Positions 37,416-44,321 of a stretch of DNA of 64,000 nt are shown here, piece after piece. Source of the DNA: Fimbriimonadales bacterium (GTDB taxonomy: Bacteria > Armatimonadota > Fimbriimonadia > Fimbriimonadales > GBS-DC); assembly GCA_025998675.1 (NCBI GenBank), contig AP024673.1, forward strand, positions 833,221 through 897,220, in the 5' to 3' direction. The notes beneath the pieces are model-generated. The model did no database searches and had not been told where the DNA came from. It worked only from the letters and a program-made list of their open reading frames with translations. Both the position numbers and the translations under genes were made by a program. The number at the start of each line of letters is the position of its first letter. Position 1 is the stretch's first letter.

Positions 37416-38051
37416 CTATGACTGGCTCAACGACTGCTGAATGCGTTCCCGCTCCTGCGCGCTCAGGTGCAGTTGCACCTCGGCGTCCGCCAGCTGCACA
37501 ACGGTATGCTCCTCGCTCTGGCGCAGCTGCTCCAGCAGGGCGTCGATTTTTTCGGGGGTCAGGCGTCGGCAGTAGATGTCGCCGACCTGCATCACGGGCG
37601 CGTCGCCGCAGTTGTTCAGGCACTCCACCTCTGTGAGCGTGAACAGCCCGTCGGGCGTCGTCTCGCCCAGCCGAATGCCCAGCTTCTGCTGCAGGTACTC
37701 CAGAATGCGATACCCGCCGCAGAGCATACAGCTCAGGTTCGTGCAGACCTCCAGCATATACTTGCCGACGGGCGTTTTGTTATACATCGTGTAGAAGGTC
37801 GCGACGCCCTCCACTTCGGCGTAGGAGCGCTGCAGGCGGTAGGCGACTTCGGCGATGGCGTCGGCGGTCAGGTGCCCCCCGTACTCGCGCTGGGCAATCC
37901 AGAGCGCGGGCAGCATCGCCGATTTTTTGTCGGGGTAGTGCGTTAGCAGCGCGTCCAGCTCCTTGACGGCGCGTTCCGAAAAGCGCAGGGTCAGCGTTTC
38001 GGGCTGCGGCGGCTTGGGTCGCTCGGTGATACGGATAATCGGCTCCTGCAT
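37416..38051 (-). CDS. nuoE: NuoE-like NADH dehydrogenase 24-kDa subunit ([2Fe-2S] thioredoxin fold)
   Basis: 211 residues. The 2Fe-2S ligands are visible: Cys103 and Cys108 (VCTNLSC) and Cys144 and Cys148 (ECLNNC). Other family text is KKSAMLPALWIAQREYGGHL, VEGVATFYTMYNKTPVGKY and GDAPVMQVGD. The C-terminal ~35 residues after EKIDALLEQL are an extra charged helix. No nuoF/G or other complex I gene is adjacent. Its own AGTATAAT box lies 9 nt before the ATG. Possible roles: complex I, or an NAD-linked hydrogenase/formate dehydrogenase diaphorase. Confidence 0.88.
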   Translation of the reverse strand: MQEPIIRITERPKPPQPETLTLRFSERAVKELDALLTHYPDKKSAMLPALWIAQREYGGHLTADAIAEVAYRLQRSYAEVEGVATFYTMYNKTPVGKYMLEVCTNLSCMLCGGYRILEYLQQKLGIRLGETTPDGLFTLTEVECLNNCGDAPVMQVGDIYCRRLTPEKIDALLEQLRQSEEHTVVQLADAEVQLHLSAQERERIQQSLSQS

Positions 38052-38081: not shown

Positions 38082-40043
38082 CTACGAGTCGGTCTCCAGC
38101 ACCGTTTCACGCGCCACCGCGAGGTAGCCGAGCATCGTGTCCGATTGCCAGTCGCGGATGGGCGCGGCGGCGGCGGCAGGCAGGCTACTGCGCTCTTCGG
38201 GCGGCGCAACCTGCCACAGCTGGGGCGTCGCCTTCTCCGTGCGCCAGAGGACGCGATCCGCTTGACTGCGCATTTGCTCCACCTGCTGCTCGCACCATGC
38301 CACACGCGCCTGCAAATTCGGAAACCGTGCGCGTAGGTAATAGGAAAAACTGCGGTAGTAGCTGGTCATCCACTGCTGCAGGTTGTTTTCCAGCTGCCCG
38401 ATGATCCACGGGAGCTGCTCGCGCAGGTCGCGTTCGGGGTCAATCATGCGATAGACTAACGCGCTCAAATCGCGTCCGCCCCACAGGGCATGCGCCGTAC
38501 TCTCCAGATGTTCCCAGCGGTAAACCAGCGGACGCAGCCACGGCAGCGACGGCAGATAAAACGCACGGACGCGGTTCTGGCGTTCACGTATCTCCTGCTG
38601 GATACGCTCGACCGCCGCGCTGACGCTCTGCAGCAGGTTGCCAAGCGTCTGTCGGATGCGGTCGGCGGCGGCGCGGTGCGCATCGTGTGCATCCACGCGC
38701 ATGTGTTGCGCGTAGTAATCCTGTAGCGCCTGCGTGTAGTCGTTGACAATCTGCGGATCGGGCATAGTGCGGCGGCGGAACAGCCCACCCTTGCTCTGTT
38801 GCGCCTGAGCGATTGCCTTTTCGAGGCGCGCATGGAGCGCCGCTTTGCGCTCCCCCGAAGGACGATGGGGAGTGAGCGTGTATATCTGCCAGCCCTCGAC
38901 GCTGCGGAGGAGCGCCTGCAGGCGGGACTGAAGAGTGAGCAAGTTGGCGTTCGGGGCGCGCAGGTACTGCTGGACGCTTGCGTGCAGGCTTTCGTGATAG
39001 GCGTCGGCGGCGTCTCGGGCGGCGCTCTGGAGCAGGGTCCGCCAGCGCGGAAGCCGCTGCTCTTGCCATGTCGTCTCCCATTCCGCCCCTGCAGCCAAGC
39101 GGGAGGAGTCCAGAGTGCTGGCGCTAAGTGAGGGCACAGGTATGGTTACGCTCAGTCCCAGCGCGCTCTGCGCCTGCACGCGCGCGCCGTCGCTCGTGTC
39201 CCATCCCTGCACGCTCTGCCCGACAATCTGCGTCCAGAGCTGGGCTTCTTCGGGGGTGGGCAGCCCTGTCGCGTCGTTCGCGCCGCTCAGTAAGCAACTC
39301 AGCGCATCGGCGACCAGCTTGTCCTGGAGGCACTGGATGATTTTGTGCAGCGGCAGCGTCACCAACCCGCAACCAATTGTGCTGGGGGCGCGCTCCGTGT
39401 CCACGACGCTGCGATAGAGCCAGTGTTCACCAACGAACTCCGCCGGGTGCAACGCCGTCAGGAGCATGTATGCGACAGTCTCGCGCAACTGCTCGTGAGT
39501 AATCACCGAGCCGTCCGAGCGCACCAGACGCAACAGGTGCATCTTGCCCTCTTGAACTGCGGACGAGGCGCGCAGGCGCGTCAGATGGTCCTGCCAGATT
39601 GCGGGCGGCAACGGCGAATCATAGGACGGATGCAGCACCAGCCAGTGCAGTCGTGCCGGTACCAGGTCGTCCGCGCGCTCACATAACGCCCGCAGGTCGT
39701 CAGCGACCCTGAGCGCATCAGCATACGCATCGCTGTCGAACACCAGCAGAAGTTGCTCCAGCAGGTAGCCGCCGGGCGGTCCGATTTCCATCCCCTGCTG
39801 GCGGGCGCGGTGGATGTTCTGCTCCAGGCGCGTCGCATACAGCCATCGGGTAAGCGGCGCGTCGAAGGCGCTCGCGTCGCCGCTCTCGGGCACATGAATC
39901 GCCTCATAGTCGCCGCGTTCGAACGCGCACAGCGCGGTTGTGGCGCGCGCGGGCGAACGAAACGCCTCCAGCAACTCGTGCGCCTCATGCACCGCGCGGC
40001 GCGAGAGGTCACCAATCGCGACGACCATTGTGGGATAAAACAT
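38082..40043 (-). CDS. Tubulin-operon protein 3: large helical protein, possible degenerate tubulin-like paralog
   Basis: 653 residues from ATG 40043 (GGGAG 8 nt upstream), overlapping the tubulin-like gene by 35 bp. The start YPTMVVAIGDLSRRAVHEAH parallels RPTLVVGLGGSGVYTARRLK of the upstream gene, followed by a similar strand (ATTALCAFERGD). The glycine-rich loops for GTP are absent. A second alpha/beta part contains LLVFDSDAYADALRVADDL and LHWLVLHPSYDSPLPP. From ~350 it is mostly long amphipathic helices (QSRLQALLRSVEGWQ; AAVERIQQEIRERQNRVRAF). It may pair with the GTPase as a non-catalytic partner. No named family was recognised. Confidence 0.6.
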   Translation of the reverse strand: MFYPTMVVAIGDLSRRAVHEAHELLEAFRSPARATTALCAFERGDYEAIHVPESGDASAFDAPLTRWLYATRLEQNIHRARQQGMEIGPPGGYLLEQLLLVFDSDAYADALRVADDLRALCERADDLVPARLHWLVLHPSYDSPLPPAIWQDHLTRLRASSAVQEGKMHLLRLVRSDGSVITHEQLRETVAYMLLTALHPAEFVGEHWLYRSVVDTERAPSTIGCGLVTLPLHKIIQCLQDKLVADALSCLLSGANDATGLPTPEEAQLWTQIVGQSVQGWDTSDGARVQAQSALGLSVTIPVPSLSASTLDSSRLAAGAEWETTWQEQRLPRWRTLLQSAARDAADAYHESLHASVQQYLRAPNANLLTLQSRLQALLRSVEGWQIYTLTPHRPSGERKAALHARLEKAIAQAQQSKGGLFRRRTMPDPQIVNDYTQALQDYYAQHMRVDAHDAHRAAADRIRQTLGNLLQSVSAAVERIQQEIRERQNRVRAFYLPSLPWLRPLVYRWEHLESTAHALWGGRDLSALVYRMIDPERDLREQLPWIIGQLENNLQQWMTSYYRSFSYYLRARFPNLQARVAWCEQQVEQMRSQADRVLWRTEKATPQLWQVAPPEERSSLPAAAAAPIRDWQSDTMLGYLAVARETVLETDS

Positions 40044-42963
40044 GCTTTCTCTCCCGAATTTGCTGCACGAGAACGCGAATGTTCTCGCGCTCCTCACTCC
40101 ACTGTTGCGCCTCTGGATCCGGCGTCTGGTTGGCGGTGTCGCGGAGCTGCTCCGCAAGCGTTTCCAGCGCCGCCGCCAGTCGCTCGCGCCCTACCGAGTC
40201 CTCAAGGCGCGCAAGGAAGGATTCGACCTCGCGCTGGCGCTTACGATCGTTCAAAAACGCCTGACGCGCCGCCCTGTAGGTCTCACCAATCGACGACTCG
40301 CTATTTGCTCGGTGGTAGATACCTGTGAGCAGATCGTTGCCATTCTCATCTGGCAAGCGCAGGCGCGGCTCGCGCTGCGTCTGGTACTTCGGGCGCGGAG
40401 TTGCGTGTCCTTCATCTTCCACGCCATAGTAGAACTTGCCGTCAATCAGCGCAACACAACCCAGATGAATCGCCGCTGCCCACAAGCGCTCCGCCTCTGG
40501 ATCCGGCGGCGTCAGCATCGGGAGCTGCGTGAAGCGGGCGTCCAGATGCAGGTGCGCGCGCACCTGCGAATTGTTCGCACGCATCCGGTAGATATGCTCC
40601 ATGTTATGAATACTGCGCAGGTAGTAGGCGCGTGCGCCGTAGGTACGGTTCATCACGGTCAGCGCGAAGGGGTAGCCGTCTGGCACGCGCTCGCAACTGA
40701 CGCCCGCCAGCCTTGTAATCTGCGCCACAGCATCATCCAGGCGTTTTGCCTCTTCCGCCTTCTGATAATCTTCAGGCGACAGGGGCACACTGACGGCAAC
40801 AAACTCCTCGAAACGCGCATCGCCCGGCGGCTGCACGGCGCTCCAGAAGGGACGCGCCACCTCAAGCAGGTACGCGACCTTGCGCTCCAGATACACCCGG
40901 TCATCGACATCTTCACCAGCGCGCTCGTCATAGACATGCTTGAGAAACTCCATCACATTCGCTTCGTTGCGAATCGGCTCGTTGATTTGCTCCGCAATCT
41001 TCTGTACCAGTCGATCAAGCGCGGTCTTATCCCGTGCGCTCAAACCCTCTATGCGAATATCCCTTACCGCCGCACTCAACGTTTGCTTTTTCGCCTGATA
41101 GAAGTTCCGAAAGTGATGGCGCAGGCAGGCGAGCAGCTCCAGCGGGTACGCAGTTCCGGGTCTGAGTTCCTCGATCTCTTGCAGACGCTCTCGGAGAAGA
41201 CTCACTAACTCCTGTGTTGTTTGTGTGTTGGAAGCGTACTGCTTGTGTATCTCCCTGAGGACTGAAGTGATTGAATCGGTGTCCGCGCCCAGTATCTCCG
41301 CAACTTTCTGGAGCCTCAGCGCGCTGACTGTTCGCTCCAGCCGACGGTTCACACGCGCTTCCAGCTGTTGATCACGCTGCTGACGAGCGCGAGTCGATGA
41401 GAACAGGCTCAGAAAACCCGGACTCGCGGTCGCATCCTGTTGCATCCGTTCCCATGTATCTGTGTTTTCACTTTCCACCTGTTTCATCTGGCTCTGGGCA
41501 CTGTTGCTTTCTTCTTGTACCCGTTGTCTGAGCGCTTCCAGAAACTGCACGACGCCTGCACCGCCATGCTTGCTTTCCAGCGCCTCACAGCGTTTTTGCA
41601 GCGCCTCTCGCACACGCGACACGATTTCATGGCGTTTCCTCGCGGCGAGGGCGTTTATGTTGGCGACGAGTTCCTGTTCCTGCCGTTTGGCGCGTTCAAT
41701 CGCTCGTTCGGGAGATTCCTGTTCCCCTATACGAAACGCACGCCGCACCTCACTGAGTTCGCTCTGAAGGGATTGGACCGTTATCCCATTCGCTTGCATG
41801 AAATTTTCCGCTTCATCGCTCCAGTTGTGATAGTGTCCGGCGTCATATCCCGTCTGCAGTCGGTCGAGCAGGAGTCGCAGGCAGCAATACTCCGTGAGTT
41901 CCCGAATGGGTACGGCGACGCTGGCAACGGCGAGGCTCGCCAGCAGGCGCGGCTGCCGTGTTTCGGGGCAGGGAATGGCGTCGATGACCGCCAGCGAGTT
42001 GCGCTTGGCGCTGCGTGCGCGGGCGCCCAGAGGCGAGCCGATGTCCATCAGCAGGCTGCGCGCCACCATTTCGAACACCTCGTATTTGGACCCCAGCGTG
42101 CGCCCACCCGCGTTCGCGCTCTCCACCACATACGCCTCGTCCACCAGAGGCTCCTTGATGGCAATCGGCGCTATCATGCGGTACTTCACTTCCCAAGTCT
42201 CGCGATTCAGGTTTTTGCTGTTGCAGAAGTATTCCAGCTCCATCAACGCGGCGTAGGCGTTGGCTTCGATGACCTCCCGCATCGAGCGCGAGATGCCCGC
42301 CTCGTTCTGAAACACCGACGGCAGGTAGAAAATCCCGACCAGCTCGCCGTCGAGGTTCTGCTGGAGTAGGATTTCGCGCAGCACCAGCGCTGTGTCGAAG
42401 TAGATGCCTGAGCCAGTGCCCCCACACAGCGACGCGATGATGTAGATGCGCGGCTGGCTGCTCAACACCTCCACCCGGTAGCGCACGGTCGCCATCAGCG
42501 CACGCACCTGCTCCTCGACCTGCATAATCTGTCGCACCGCCTGCTGCAGGCGCGGGTAGATGCGATCGAACGAGGCATGGAAACCGAACCGCCCCACCGG
42601 GCGGATGCCCGCCGCCCCGTCCGCGTTGCGCAACAAGCCGACATCTACATCCCCATTCAGAAACTCCAGGTAGGGGTGCAACTCCGGGTTGCGTTTCCAC
42701 TCGTCGACAATCTGTTCGGGGTGCGCAATCGACAGCTGCACGATTTCATCGGATTCCACATCTGCAAGCGTCGGTTCCTGTTGAAACTGTCCCTGATCGG
42801 TGTCCAGGTAGATAAAGCGGATGAGTCCCTCCACGCTGTAGCGCTCTCGAATCAGTTGTTTGAGTCGGCGCGCAGTGTAGACGCCGCTGCCGCCCAGACC
42901 AACCACCAGAGTCGGGCGCACTTCGCCACGCTCGTGATACTCCACTGCAATTGGGTTCTGCAT
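40009..42963 (-). CDS. Tubulin/FtsZ-like GTPase with long coiled-coil C-terminus
   Basis: 984 residues from ATG 42963 (AAGGAGG upstream). The N-terminal ~430 residues match the bacterial tubulin-like (Tubulin_2 / FtsZ-like) family: first glycine strand PTLVVGLGGSGVYTARRLKQ (17-36), Asp in YLDTDQ, and tubulin signature CGGTGSGIYFD (180-190), equal to FtsZ GGGTG(T/S)G. Further blocks are LVGIFYLPSVFQ and EANAYAALMELEYF. Residues ~470-700 are coiled coil (ERAIERAKRQEQELVANINA). The rest is helical with a GFP-unlike beta patch near 870-930. Relatives are predicted to act in membrane remodelling; function is not established. Confidence 0.82.
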   Translation of the reverse strand: MQNPIAVEYHERGEVRPTLVVGLGGSGVYTARRLKQLIRERYSVEGLIRFIYLDTDQGQFQQEPTLADVESDEIVQLSIAHPEQIVDEWKRNPELHPYLEFLNGDVDVGLLRNADGAAGIRPVGRFGFHASFDRIYPRLQQAVRQIMQVEEQVRALMATVRYRVEVLSSQPRIYIIASLCGGTGSGIYFDTALVLREILLQQNLDGELVGIFYLPSVFQNEAGISRSMREVIEANAYAALMELEYFCNSKNLNRETWEVKYRMIAPIAIKEPLVDEAYVVESANAGGRTLGSKYEVFEMVARSLLMDIGSPLGARARSAKRNSLAVIDAIPCPETRQPRLLASLAVASVAVPIRELTEYCCLRLLLDRLQTGYDAGHYHNWSDEAENFMQANGITVQSLQSELSEVRRAFRIGEQESPERAIERAKRQEQELVANINALAARKRHEIVSRVREALQKRCEALESKHGGAGVVQFLEALRQRVQEESNSAQSQMKQVESENTDTWERMQQDATASPGFLSLFSSTRARQQRDQQLEARVNRRLERTVSALRLQKVAEILGADTDSITSVLREIHKQYASNTQTTQELVSLLRERLQEIEELRPGTAYPLELLACLRHHFRNFYQAKKQTLSAAVRDIRIEGLSARDKTALDRLVQKIAEQINEPIRNEANVMEFLKHVYDERAGEDVDDRVYLERKVAYLLEVARPFWSAVQPPGDARFEEFVAVSVPLSPEDYQKAEEAKRLDDAVAQITRLAGVSCERVPDGYPFALTVMNRTYGARAYYLRSIHNMEHIYRMRANNSQVRAHLHLDARFTQLPMLTPPDPEAERLWAAAIHLGCVALIDGKFYYGVEDEGHATPRPKYQTQREPRLRLPDENGNDLLTGIYHRANSESSIGETYRAARQAFLNDRKRQREVESFLARLEDSVGRERLAAALETLAEQLRDTANQTPDPEAQQWSEERENIRVLVQQIRERKHVLSHNGRRDW

Positions 42964-42976
42964 GCTCACGCCTCCT

Positions 42977-44215
42977 TCAAAGTTGTGCCAACTGCTGCAG
43001 CTGATAATATTGATATCCGTACCAAGCCAGTAAAACGGCGCCACCCCCCACGAGAAACGCCTTGAGAGGGGTGTTGGGTAGAAACCTATTGGTGTGTCGA
43101 TCTCCCTGATAAGTCGCCTCCTTGTACTCGAGCATGAATCCATTCGCCAGTCGATACTTCTCGCCCTCGACAAGCGTACTCCCCGCAGGCAAGGGTTCGT
43201 TGTCCAGTAAATTTCTGAGTTCTCCCTCAACCAGATACACTTGCTTCTGCCCGGCGCGCGCCTGCAACACCACAGGCGCGTCTGTGTAGTTCGTAAGGGG
43301 ATAGTCCGAGTCGGCAGCGCCGATAGTTGTGCGTGCGTCGCTATCAAGCGATATCGAATTTCTTGTATTGTACGACGGGTTGATCAAGCACAGTTCATGC
43401 GTGTACAGCGGAATGCGTTTTCCGGGTATCAGCAGCCCAATAATCAGCGCGAGCCCCCCTACAACCGCCCATCCGATGTTAGGAAGCAAATACTGCACCA
43501 TCATCTGGTCTGGCTCTGTTGTGATGCGCTGCCCCTTGTAGGTCAGCGCTGTATTCACATAGAGGGTGTAGGTACCGGGCTTGCTGAAGCGATAGGCGAC
43601 ACTACTCTGCGGGGCGAGGCTACTGGGCAGCTCCACCTGCGCGGCAGGCTCGCAGCGCGCTTCCAGCGCGAGGTTCTCCGTCGCGCCCGTGTAGCGCGAC
43701 TCGGCGTCGCCGATCACCAGCGCGACAGGTTGACGGGCGACGGCGCCTACACGCACGCCGTCTTGCTCCAGCTTATTCAGGAACCGTGCGTAGGGCACGC
43801 GAATCACCTCAAATTGCTGAAAGGGCGAGTAGTAGCTCTGGGGGGCGCGCCCCTGCTCCCACTCCATTTTGAAGCGCAGGCGGTGCAGCTCCGCGCTGGC
43901 GGGCGTATAGGTTCCGGTGAACACGCGGTCGCCCGCAACGGTATCGCCATACTTGCCGTCGTCGCGCAGGGAGACGCGCTGAATCAGCTCATCGCGCGCG
44001 TTGTAGATAATAGCCGTGATGAACACACGCGCCACAGGCTCCTGCAGGCGCGCCTGCACCTCCAGTCGTACCACAGGCGCTCGCCGCCCCCATCCGTAGA
44101 CCGCATCTGGCTTGGGAGCCAGAACCTCGACAGGGTTTGCTCCCACTTTTGCAACCAGCAGTATAACTGCTATGGCGCTAATTTGTCCGCGCCTCATTTG
44201 CACCATCCCCTTCAT
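42977..44215 (-). CDS. Membrane protein with choice-of-anchor-X-like outer domain and FHA-like inner region
   Basis: 412 residues. A signal/anchor helix (~11-24) leads to an outer beta domain containing RVSLRDDGKYGDTVAGDRVF (81-100), the D-D-G-x-x-G-D-x-x-A-G-D motif of choice-of-anchor X. A membrane helix (~248-266) precedes an inner region ~275-375 that resembles a divergent FHA fold: RTTIGAADSDYPL, VVLQARAGQKQVYLVEG, LLDNEPLPAGSTLVEGEKYR and GFMLEY. A final membrane helix lies near 388-402. It is the first gene of the tubulin operon, 13 bp before the GTPase. The FHA assignment is weak and by pattern only. Confidence 0.6.
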   Translation of the reverse strand: MKGMVQMRRGQISAIAVILLVAKVGANPVEVLAPKPDAVYGWGRRAPVVRLEVQARLQEPVARVFITAIIYNARDELIQRVSLRDDGKYGDTVAGDRVFTGTYTPASAELHRLRFKMEWEQGRAPQSYYSPFQQFEVIRVPYARFLNKLEQDGVRVGAVARQPVALVIGDAESRYTGATENLALEARCEPAAQVELPSSLAPQSSVAYRFSKPGTYTLYVNTALTYKGQRITTEPDQMMVQYLLPNIGWAVVGGLALIIGLLIPGKRIPLYTHELCLINPSYNTRNSISLDSDARTTIGAADSDYPLTNYTDAPVVLQARAGQKQVYLVEGELRNLLDNEPLPAGSTLVEGEKYRLANGFMLEYKEATYQGDRHTNRFLPNTPLKAFLVGGGAVLLAWYGYQYYQLQQLAQL

Positions 44216-44232: not shown

Positions 44233-44240
44233 ATTATACC
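44233..44240 (-). promoter_or_regulatory. GGTATAAT -10 element of the tubulin operon
   Basis: Minus-strand TGTGGTATAAT, 17 nt before ATG 44215, with CGGAG as ribosome-binding site. This is the only evident promoter for the three-gene operon. Confidence 0.6.
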
Positions 44241-44321
44241 ACATTTCAGCTTTCTGTGTCAACAAACTGGTATCAATCGGCGCATTCCCCGTAAACCCAT
44301 CCGCACTTCGCTGTGCCATCA

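Follow-up and report, generated by a model that had tools for sequence, protein, structure and literature searches.

The stretch of DNA considered here, called the window below, comprises 64,000 nucleotides from a Fimbriimonadales bacterium (Armatimonadota; contig AP024673.1, positions 833,221 to 897,220). Three neighbouring genes, A, T and H, all on the minus strand, span window positions 44215-38082, with a spacing of 13 bp between A and T and an overlap of 35 bp between T and H; a preliminary description of this DNA had reported three tightly packed genes with exactly these coordinates, strand and spacing. T encodes a tubulin-like GTPase and A a membrane protein. Judged by profile comparison, H begins with a degenerate relative of the GTPase domain of T, and the trio recurs in related genomes. 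The genes are the following.

42977..44215, minus strand: gene A, membrane anchor protein of 412 amino acids (aa) (NCBIfam match, AlphaFold2, Foldseek, orthologues)
40009..42963, minus strand: gene T, FtsZl1/Tubulin_2 GTPase of 984 aa (Pfam Tubulin_2 match at residues 19-366)
38082..40043, minus strand: gene H, degenerate tubulin-like (pseudo-GTPase) partner of 653 aa, with an N-terminal Rossmann-like domain and a long helical region (profile comparison, intermediates, AlphaFold2 secondary structure)

The T protein matches the Pfam profile Tubulin_2 (PF13809) at E = 3.8e-52 and 178.1 bits (cut-off 27), over columns 1-352 of 356. Both GTP-binding loops are present.

42883..42900, minus strand: T1 GTP-binding loop GLGGSG, T residues 22-27 (G22, G24 and G27 invariant across T homologues)
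42406..42426, minus strand: T4 tubulin signature loop CGGTGSG, T residues 180-186 (invariant or nearly so across T homologues)

The FtsZ/tubulin-like protein recognised earlier from its CGGTGSG motif is thereby confirmed, and the tubulin domain on which that description depended is present by profile match. The T4 loop fits the GGGTG(S/T)G type of FtsZl1/Tubulin_2, and T stays below the cut-off of the canonical tubulin/FtsZ profile PF00091 (21.8 vs 33 bits). T is the only Tubulin_2 gene of the 2.99-Mb genome; an ordinary FtsZ gene is located elsewhere in it. The predicted order of an FtsZ-like domain, a coiled coil and a helical C-terminal domain would be compatible with the FtsZl1 layout, and residues ~377-650 gave PDB matches to helical-bundle proteins only. 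With its GTP loops intact, T is, by these matches, a member of the known FtsZl1/Tubulin_2 family. A Tubulin_2 gene was present in 84 of 291 Armatimonadota genomes, and its distribution is patchy within the window's own genus, which argues for an accessory protein rather than a division protein.

The H protein of the window gave no match above chance in Pfam, NCBIfam or PADLOC, Pfam Tubulin_2 included. Its N-terminus, FYPTMVVAIGDLSRRAVHEAHELL, is similar to the start of Tubulin_2, RPTLVVGLGGSGVYTARRLKQLI, and hhalign comparison of H with T using shallow alignments produced weak matches only. As this direct comparison was weak and drew on few sequences, intermediate homologues were sampled. Matches of the T profile to H sequences fell in coiled coils and were for that reason not counted as evidence. 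Homologues of H were found as the gene 3' of Tubulin_2 in four other families, f36 (L135_6), f39 (L148_1), f40 (L147_3) and f42 (L146_5); the H profile alone retrieved L146_5 at E 2.2e-9 and L135_6 at E 2e-8. L146_5 matches Pfam Tubulin_2 at E 2e-5 (24.5 bits), and in a DNA-based search with neighbouring frame pieces added it reached 29.2 bits, above the Tubulin_2 cut-off of 27. The H profile also matches a true Tubulin_2 protein, L126_2, at E 1e-8 among neighbourhood proteins and at E 1e-10 in a two-sequence search.

The hhalign comparison of H with Tubulin_2 was calibrated with decoys. For the N-terminal domains of the H homologues it gave P 1.4e-17 over 304 columns and a score of 130.7 vs a decoy maximum of 40.2. 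Window-type H scored 45.3 (highest decoy 34.7) over three collinear segments, albeit with a probability of only ~78% when used alone; window-type H and the homologues combined gave P 6.9e-15. As expected, strands alternate with helices over the first 200 residues in the AlphaFold2 model of H. The following features of H can be placed on the window.

39276..40043, minus strand: tubulin-like domain of H, residues ~1-256 (profile comparison and joint alignment)
40002..40019, minus strand: eroded T1 loop of H, AIGDLS replacing GLGGSG (joint alignment)
39723..39740, minus strand: eroded T4 loop of H, FDSDAY replacing CGGTGSG (joint alignment)
38754..38801, minus strand: site in H, residues ~415-430, at which homologues of other families have a transmembrane hairpin (alignment and hydropathy)

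In the joint alignment, the T1 loop passes from GLGGSG in T through GVGxxG in the intermediates to AIGDLS in window H, and the T4 loop from CGGTGSG through remnants such as EPGAG to FDSDAY. With both GTP loops eroded, window H can hardly bind GTP in the tubulin fashion. On this profile and alignment evidence, the N-terminal third of H is a degenerate Tubulin_2 domain, homologous to that of T, from which both GTP-binding loops have been lost, and H is a pseudo-GTPase and no active Tubulin_2 member. The earlier label of a large helical protein holds for the C-terminal two thirds of H; the degenerate tubulin domain in the N-terminal third had been missed. The finding accounts for a previously unclassifiable gene downstream of Tubulin_2.

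The helical region of H differs between families. Two hydrophobic segments, a sign of a membrane hairpin, lie in its middle in the homologues of f19, f29, f36 and f40; the same region has one hydrophobic segment in f42, none above threshold in f39 and a short loop in the window's family. Going by alignment and hydropathy, the transmembrane hairpin is lost in the window's lineage.

A fourth gene follows the H homologue in f36 (L135:13022-14104), f42 (L146:11409-12521), f40 (L147:1809-2936) and f39 (L148:1102-2163). It encodes four transmembrane helices and a transglutaminase-like domain, the latter with a weak Pfam match and a conserved GDCEDK, and is absent from the window's operon.

The order A-T-H is retained in four related genomes (G008, G016, G017 and G011) and in part, at the ends of contigs, in two more (G002 and G006); A orthologues adjoin T in six related loci. 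The same order occurs in a second Armatimonadota family, f19, and genomes of f17 and f29 contain all three genes, although adjacency could not be demonstrated there. G008 alone has flanking genes in common with the window (sdh genes, nuoE), and those of G016, G017 and G006 are different, so that the trio appears to have been inherited as a unit. The gene-neighbourhood survey thus bore out the linkage of both neighbours to the GTPase gene that the preliminary description had expected in related genomes. T and H diverge in parallel, with identities to the window proteins of 65/61/54/53/46% and 67/57/51/50/41%, respectively. In a tree of the T domain, the T proteins of trio-bearing loci cluster (3 changes vs 11.4 expected from shuffles), with that of f29 apart on a long branch. 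A scan of genome contigs with H returned five loci, all of them already-known relatives. In one f19 genome (G183, L058 6613-13081) all three genes are decayed or frame-shifted; a sequencing error is possible.

By hydropathy and its AlphaFold2 model (predicted local distance difference test, pLDDT, 84.5), the A protein is laid out as an N-terminal signal or transmembrane segment, two outer immunoglobulin (Ig)-like domains, a transmembrane helix, an inner beta-domain resembling a degenerate FHA domain, and a C-terminal transmembrane helix.

43871..43975, minus strand: choice-of-anchor X motif of A, residues 81-115, DDGKYGDTVAGDRVFTG (D85, D86, G87, D91 and D96 invariant in the alignment)
43421..43477, minus strand: transmembrane helix of A, residues 247-265 (hydropathy; model helix 247-262)
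43094..43417, minus strand: inner domain of A, residues 267-374, FHA-like without the phospho-binding R and SxxH (alignments)

The choice-of-anchor-X-like outer motif noted earlier passes the NCBIfam cut-off (choice_anch_X, NF041940; 33.6 bits, cut-off 25), and the best Foldseek matches of the outer part are filamin-type Ig repeats (E 7e-8). For the inner region, A had no match to Pfam FHA (PF00498); its orthologue L126_1 reached 16.3 bits, under the cut-off of 20.7. The arginine and S-x-x-H with which FHA domains bind phosphothreonine are missing from the inner domain of every aligned relative, and a PDB profile search with this domain found nothing significant, the FHA chain of DUN1 appearing at E 1.2 only. 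No kinase is linked to the trio, the nearest lying ~41 kb away. Of the membrane anchor with phospho-input proposed in the preliminary description, the envelope-spanning partner is upheld by hydropathy, AlphaFold2 and Foldseek; the phospho-input is not, the FHA arginine and SxxH being absent and no kinase linked. FHA-mediated input was dropped as the default since the binding residues are missing and the PDB search gave no significant match. The FHA-like character of the inner region survives as a degenerate resemblance at best, on the strength of the alignments, and the better guess is that A docks by shape or protein contact and not by phosphorylation. No VWA domain was matched in A. Its equivalents 5' of T in f29, f39 and f42 (loci L126, L148 and L146) carry an extra VWA domain, which makes A look like the vWA-type partner of FtsZl1 proteins minus the vWA domain.

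Strong ribosome-binding sites precede T (GAAGGAGG) and H (GGGAGAG). Longer open reading frames starting at TTG, of 1112 aa for T and 691 aa for H, are unlikely genes, as the internal ATG starts are kept in relatives. One further feature lies upstream of A.

44233..44262, minus strand: predicted promoter TTGACA - 18 nt - TATAAT (12/12 consensus match; in the gap between the divergent genes sdhC and A)

This match is positioned 18-47 bp 5' of the start codon of A. Four promoter-like sites were found in the region vs 1.7 expected, and the one before A is the only perfect one. On the other side of the trio, a gene for a NuoE-like 2Fe-2S thioredoxin-type subunit (window 37416-38051) follows H on the same strand after 30 bp. 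Its membership of the operon as a fourth gene was rejected: the gene is next to H also in G008 but in none of G016, G017 and G006.

The best explanation of these observations, to which a probability of about 0.55 is given, is a co-inherited operon of the FtsZl1 type that combines an active tubulin GTPase with a tubulin-like but inactive partner and an anchor in the envelope. H would be an ancient paralogue of T that has retained the tubulin-like fold and a long helical tail. T would bind GTP and most likely assemble into filaments or ordered arrays, and H, which would not hydrolyse GTP, would most likely join the T assembly and cap, nucleate or pin the polymer. The hairpin in the H proteins of relatives suggests that attachment to the membrane was probably a task of the H subunit ancestrally; where the hairpin is gone, as in the window's lineage, A would take over the anchoring, its inner FHA-like domain docking the T/H assembly by protein contact. 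The assembly would then line the inner face of the membrane as a GTP-driven scaffold, with A linking it to something outside. A more specific version, put forward tentatively, makes T and H an obligatory pair of a GTP-binding tubulin and an inactive, ancestrally membrane-embedded pseudo-tubulin, in which H itself fastens the polymer to the membrane and defines its end or register, and A, as an Ig-type envelope receptor, couples it to the outside. A conserved pseudo-GTPase partner offers a concrete and testable mechanism, a non-hydrolysing subunit pinning or nucleating a polymer at the membrane, and the trio is a ready-made three-gene set for reconstitution. Some of the relatives come from hot springs, so that the proteins may be thermostable and attractive for structural work.

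Several observations weigh against this explanation. In f29, H lies on another contig than A and T, and f17 has genes between A and T. A second, diverged A-T pair occurs without a recognisable H (L020, G017:C20), in a genome with a complete trio elsewhere, which suggests that H may be dispensable. Confidence in the AlphaFold2 model of H is moderate only (pLDDT 70, predicted template-modelling score, pTM, 0.51), and Foldseek with this model against PDB gave no match at E <= 0.001, the list consisting mostly of long helices and being uninformative. Together with the coiled-coil location of the direct T-to-H profile matches and the ~78% probability of window-type H alone, the lack of a tubulin match in Foldseek would fit a protein unrelated to T, Rossmann-like and helical, whose likeness to tubulin is that of a generic beta-alpha-beta start and coiled coils. 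Such a reading is very improbable and already disfavoured, given that the homologues from f36, f39, f40 and f42 match Tubulin_2 along the whole domain far above the decoys, that two of them are tied to H by profile, and that the segments are collinear and the gene position identical. A different doubt concerns polymerisation. FtsZl1 is the most diverged family of the tubulin superfamily, and its longitudinal contact elements, T6-H7, are not identifiable, so that filaments may be different or absent, as Makarova and Koonin (2010, PMC2875224) have it. The long C-terminal helical region of T could moreover block stacking. T might therefore act together with H and A in a membrane complex as a GTP switch that does not polymerise, which is possible but would depart from the argument, made in the same text, that all characterised members of the tubulin superfamily form filaments.

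Two other readings concern function. The trio may be a conflict or anti-phage defence module in which A senses perturbation of the envelope and T and H assemble in response, the kind of response proposed for GTPase- and tubulin-centred systems, among which the GAP1-N2 systems of firmicutes have two tubulin genes (Kaur et al. 2020, PMC7159879). Tubulin_2 is patchily distributed, as such a module might be. In three of three Thermales plasmids, a trio of genes for a vWA protein, a Tubulin_2 protein and a protein of ~680 aa is followed by brxL, immediately in two and after one transposase in the third; two of the three then continue with genes for a helicase, methyltransferase or nuclease, and PADLOC calls DrmD-, DrmMI- and DruE-like genes in A. 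silvanus. The third Thermales protein is weakly H-like (23.4 vs a decoy maximum of 21.0). However, neither the window nor the Armatimonadota loci inspected showed defence genes beside the trio, GAP1-N2 is absent from the genome (no PF20013 match anywhere), and PADLOC gave no convincing match to A, T or H; a defence role for the window's trio is rather unlikely. Less likely still is regulation of a surface organelle or of motility, such as type IV pili, by analogy with the Tubulin_2 protein of Synechocystis. Interruption of sll0445 (Tubulin_2), sll0446 (FtsA-like) or sll0447 (DivIC-like) impairs phototaxis in that organism, and the products Sll0445-Sll0447 co-fractionate with pilus assembly proteins (PMC9880817). 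MotA/ExbB-like and OmpA proteins are encoded in other Tubulin_2 loci of Armatimonadota and Deinococcus, which ties Tubulin_2 repeatedly to envelope machines. The Synechocystis cluster has other partners, though, and no pilus genes were seen beside the trio in the loci inspected.

Two further types of locus were encountered. The Thermales loci with genes for a vWA protein, a tubulin-like protein, a ~680-aa protein and brxL (L154/L157, L155/L158 and L159, on Thermus, Allomeiothermus and Meiothermus plasmids) are a possible tubulin-containing defence locus. A second type of Tubulin_2 locus consists of the tubulin gene followed by genes for a MotA/ExbB-like coiled-coil membrane protein and an OmpA/MotB-like protein (L138, L139, L132, L141 and L024 in Armatimonadota; L160-L163 on Deinococcus plasmids). 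In most of the Armatimonadota loci of this type the partners resemble ZorA/ZorB of Zorya, which suggests a tubulin coupled to an ion-driven motor.

The FtsZl1 family was identified in 2010 in diverse bacteria and archaea and predicted to remodel membranes together with vWA proteins (Makarova and Koonin 2010, PMC2875224); neither a structure nor a mechanism was found for its proteins in the literature. The uncharacterised cytoskeletal system of the preliminary description is accordingly right in that the cytoskeleton-like family is still unstudied, but the GTPase family, its pairing with a membrane partner in an operon and the idea that it remodels membranes are already known (PMC2875224). The window's operon shares with the FtsZl1 operons a T protein with an N-terminal Tubulin_2 domain and signature loop, a membrane-associated partner gene and, in relatives, a vWA domain in the equivalent of A. 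It differs in that A is without the vWA domain that is typical, albeit not universal, in those operons, in that a P-loop GTPase, kinase or OmpA gene is missing, and in having a degenerate tubulin as its third protein; the accessible main text of 2010 mentions no pseudo-tubulin partner. H-type genes, unrecognised as tubulins, may be among the unnamed partner families in the supplementary tables of that paper. The GAP1-N2 systems likewise combine Tubulin_2 with a vWA/Ig-type membrane protein, and their firmicute versions have two tubulin genes, the second of which is not called degenerate in the accessible text (Kaur et al. 2020, PMC7159879). The window's trio contains neither an FNIII nor a GTPase gene of those systems, and as the genome has no GAP1-N2 gene, the trio is not a GAP1-N2 conflict system as defined.

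The Thermales plasmid loci have the same three-gene order and a third protein that is similar in size and weakly H-like, but their anchor carries a vWA domain and their neighbours are defence genes of the BREX/DISARM type. The Synechocystis Sll0445-Sll0447 cluster also places a Tubulin_2 gene among three genes; its partners are FtsA-like and DivIC-like and its phenotype concerns motility. In alpha/beta-tubulin and BtubA/B, two proteins of the tubulin superfamily are encoded or used together and both bind GTP. T and H resemble these as a pair of tubulin-superfamily proteins, whereas H, without both loops, would be a partner that does not bind nucleotide. Literature searches on pseudo-GTPase bacterial tubulins and on BrxL with tubulin found nothing relevant. 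Beside these known systems, and as far as the literature consulted shows, the pseudo-tubulin partner, the series of its erosion, its lost membrane hairpin and the vWA-less anchor are new.

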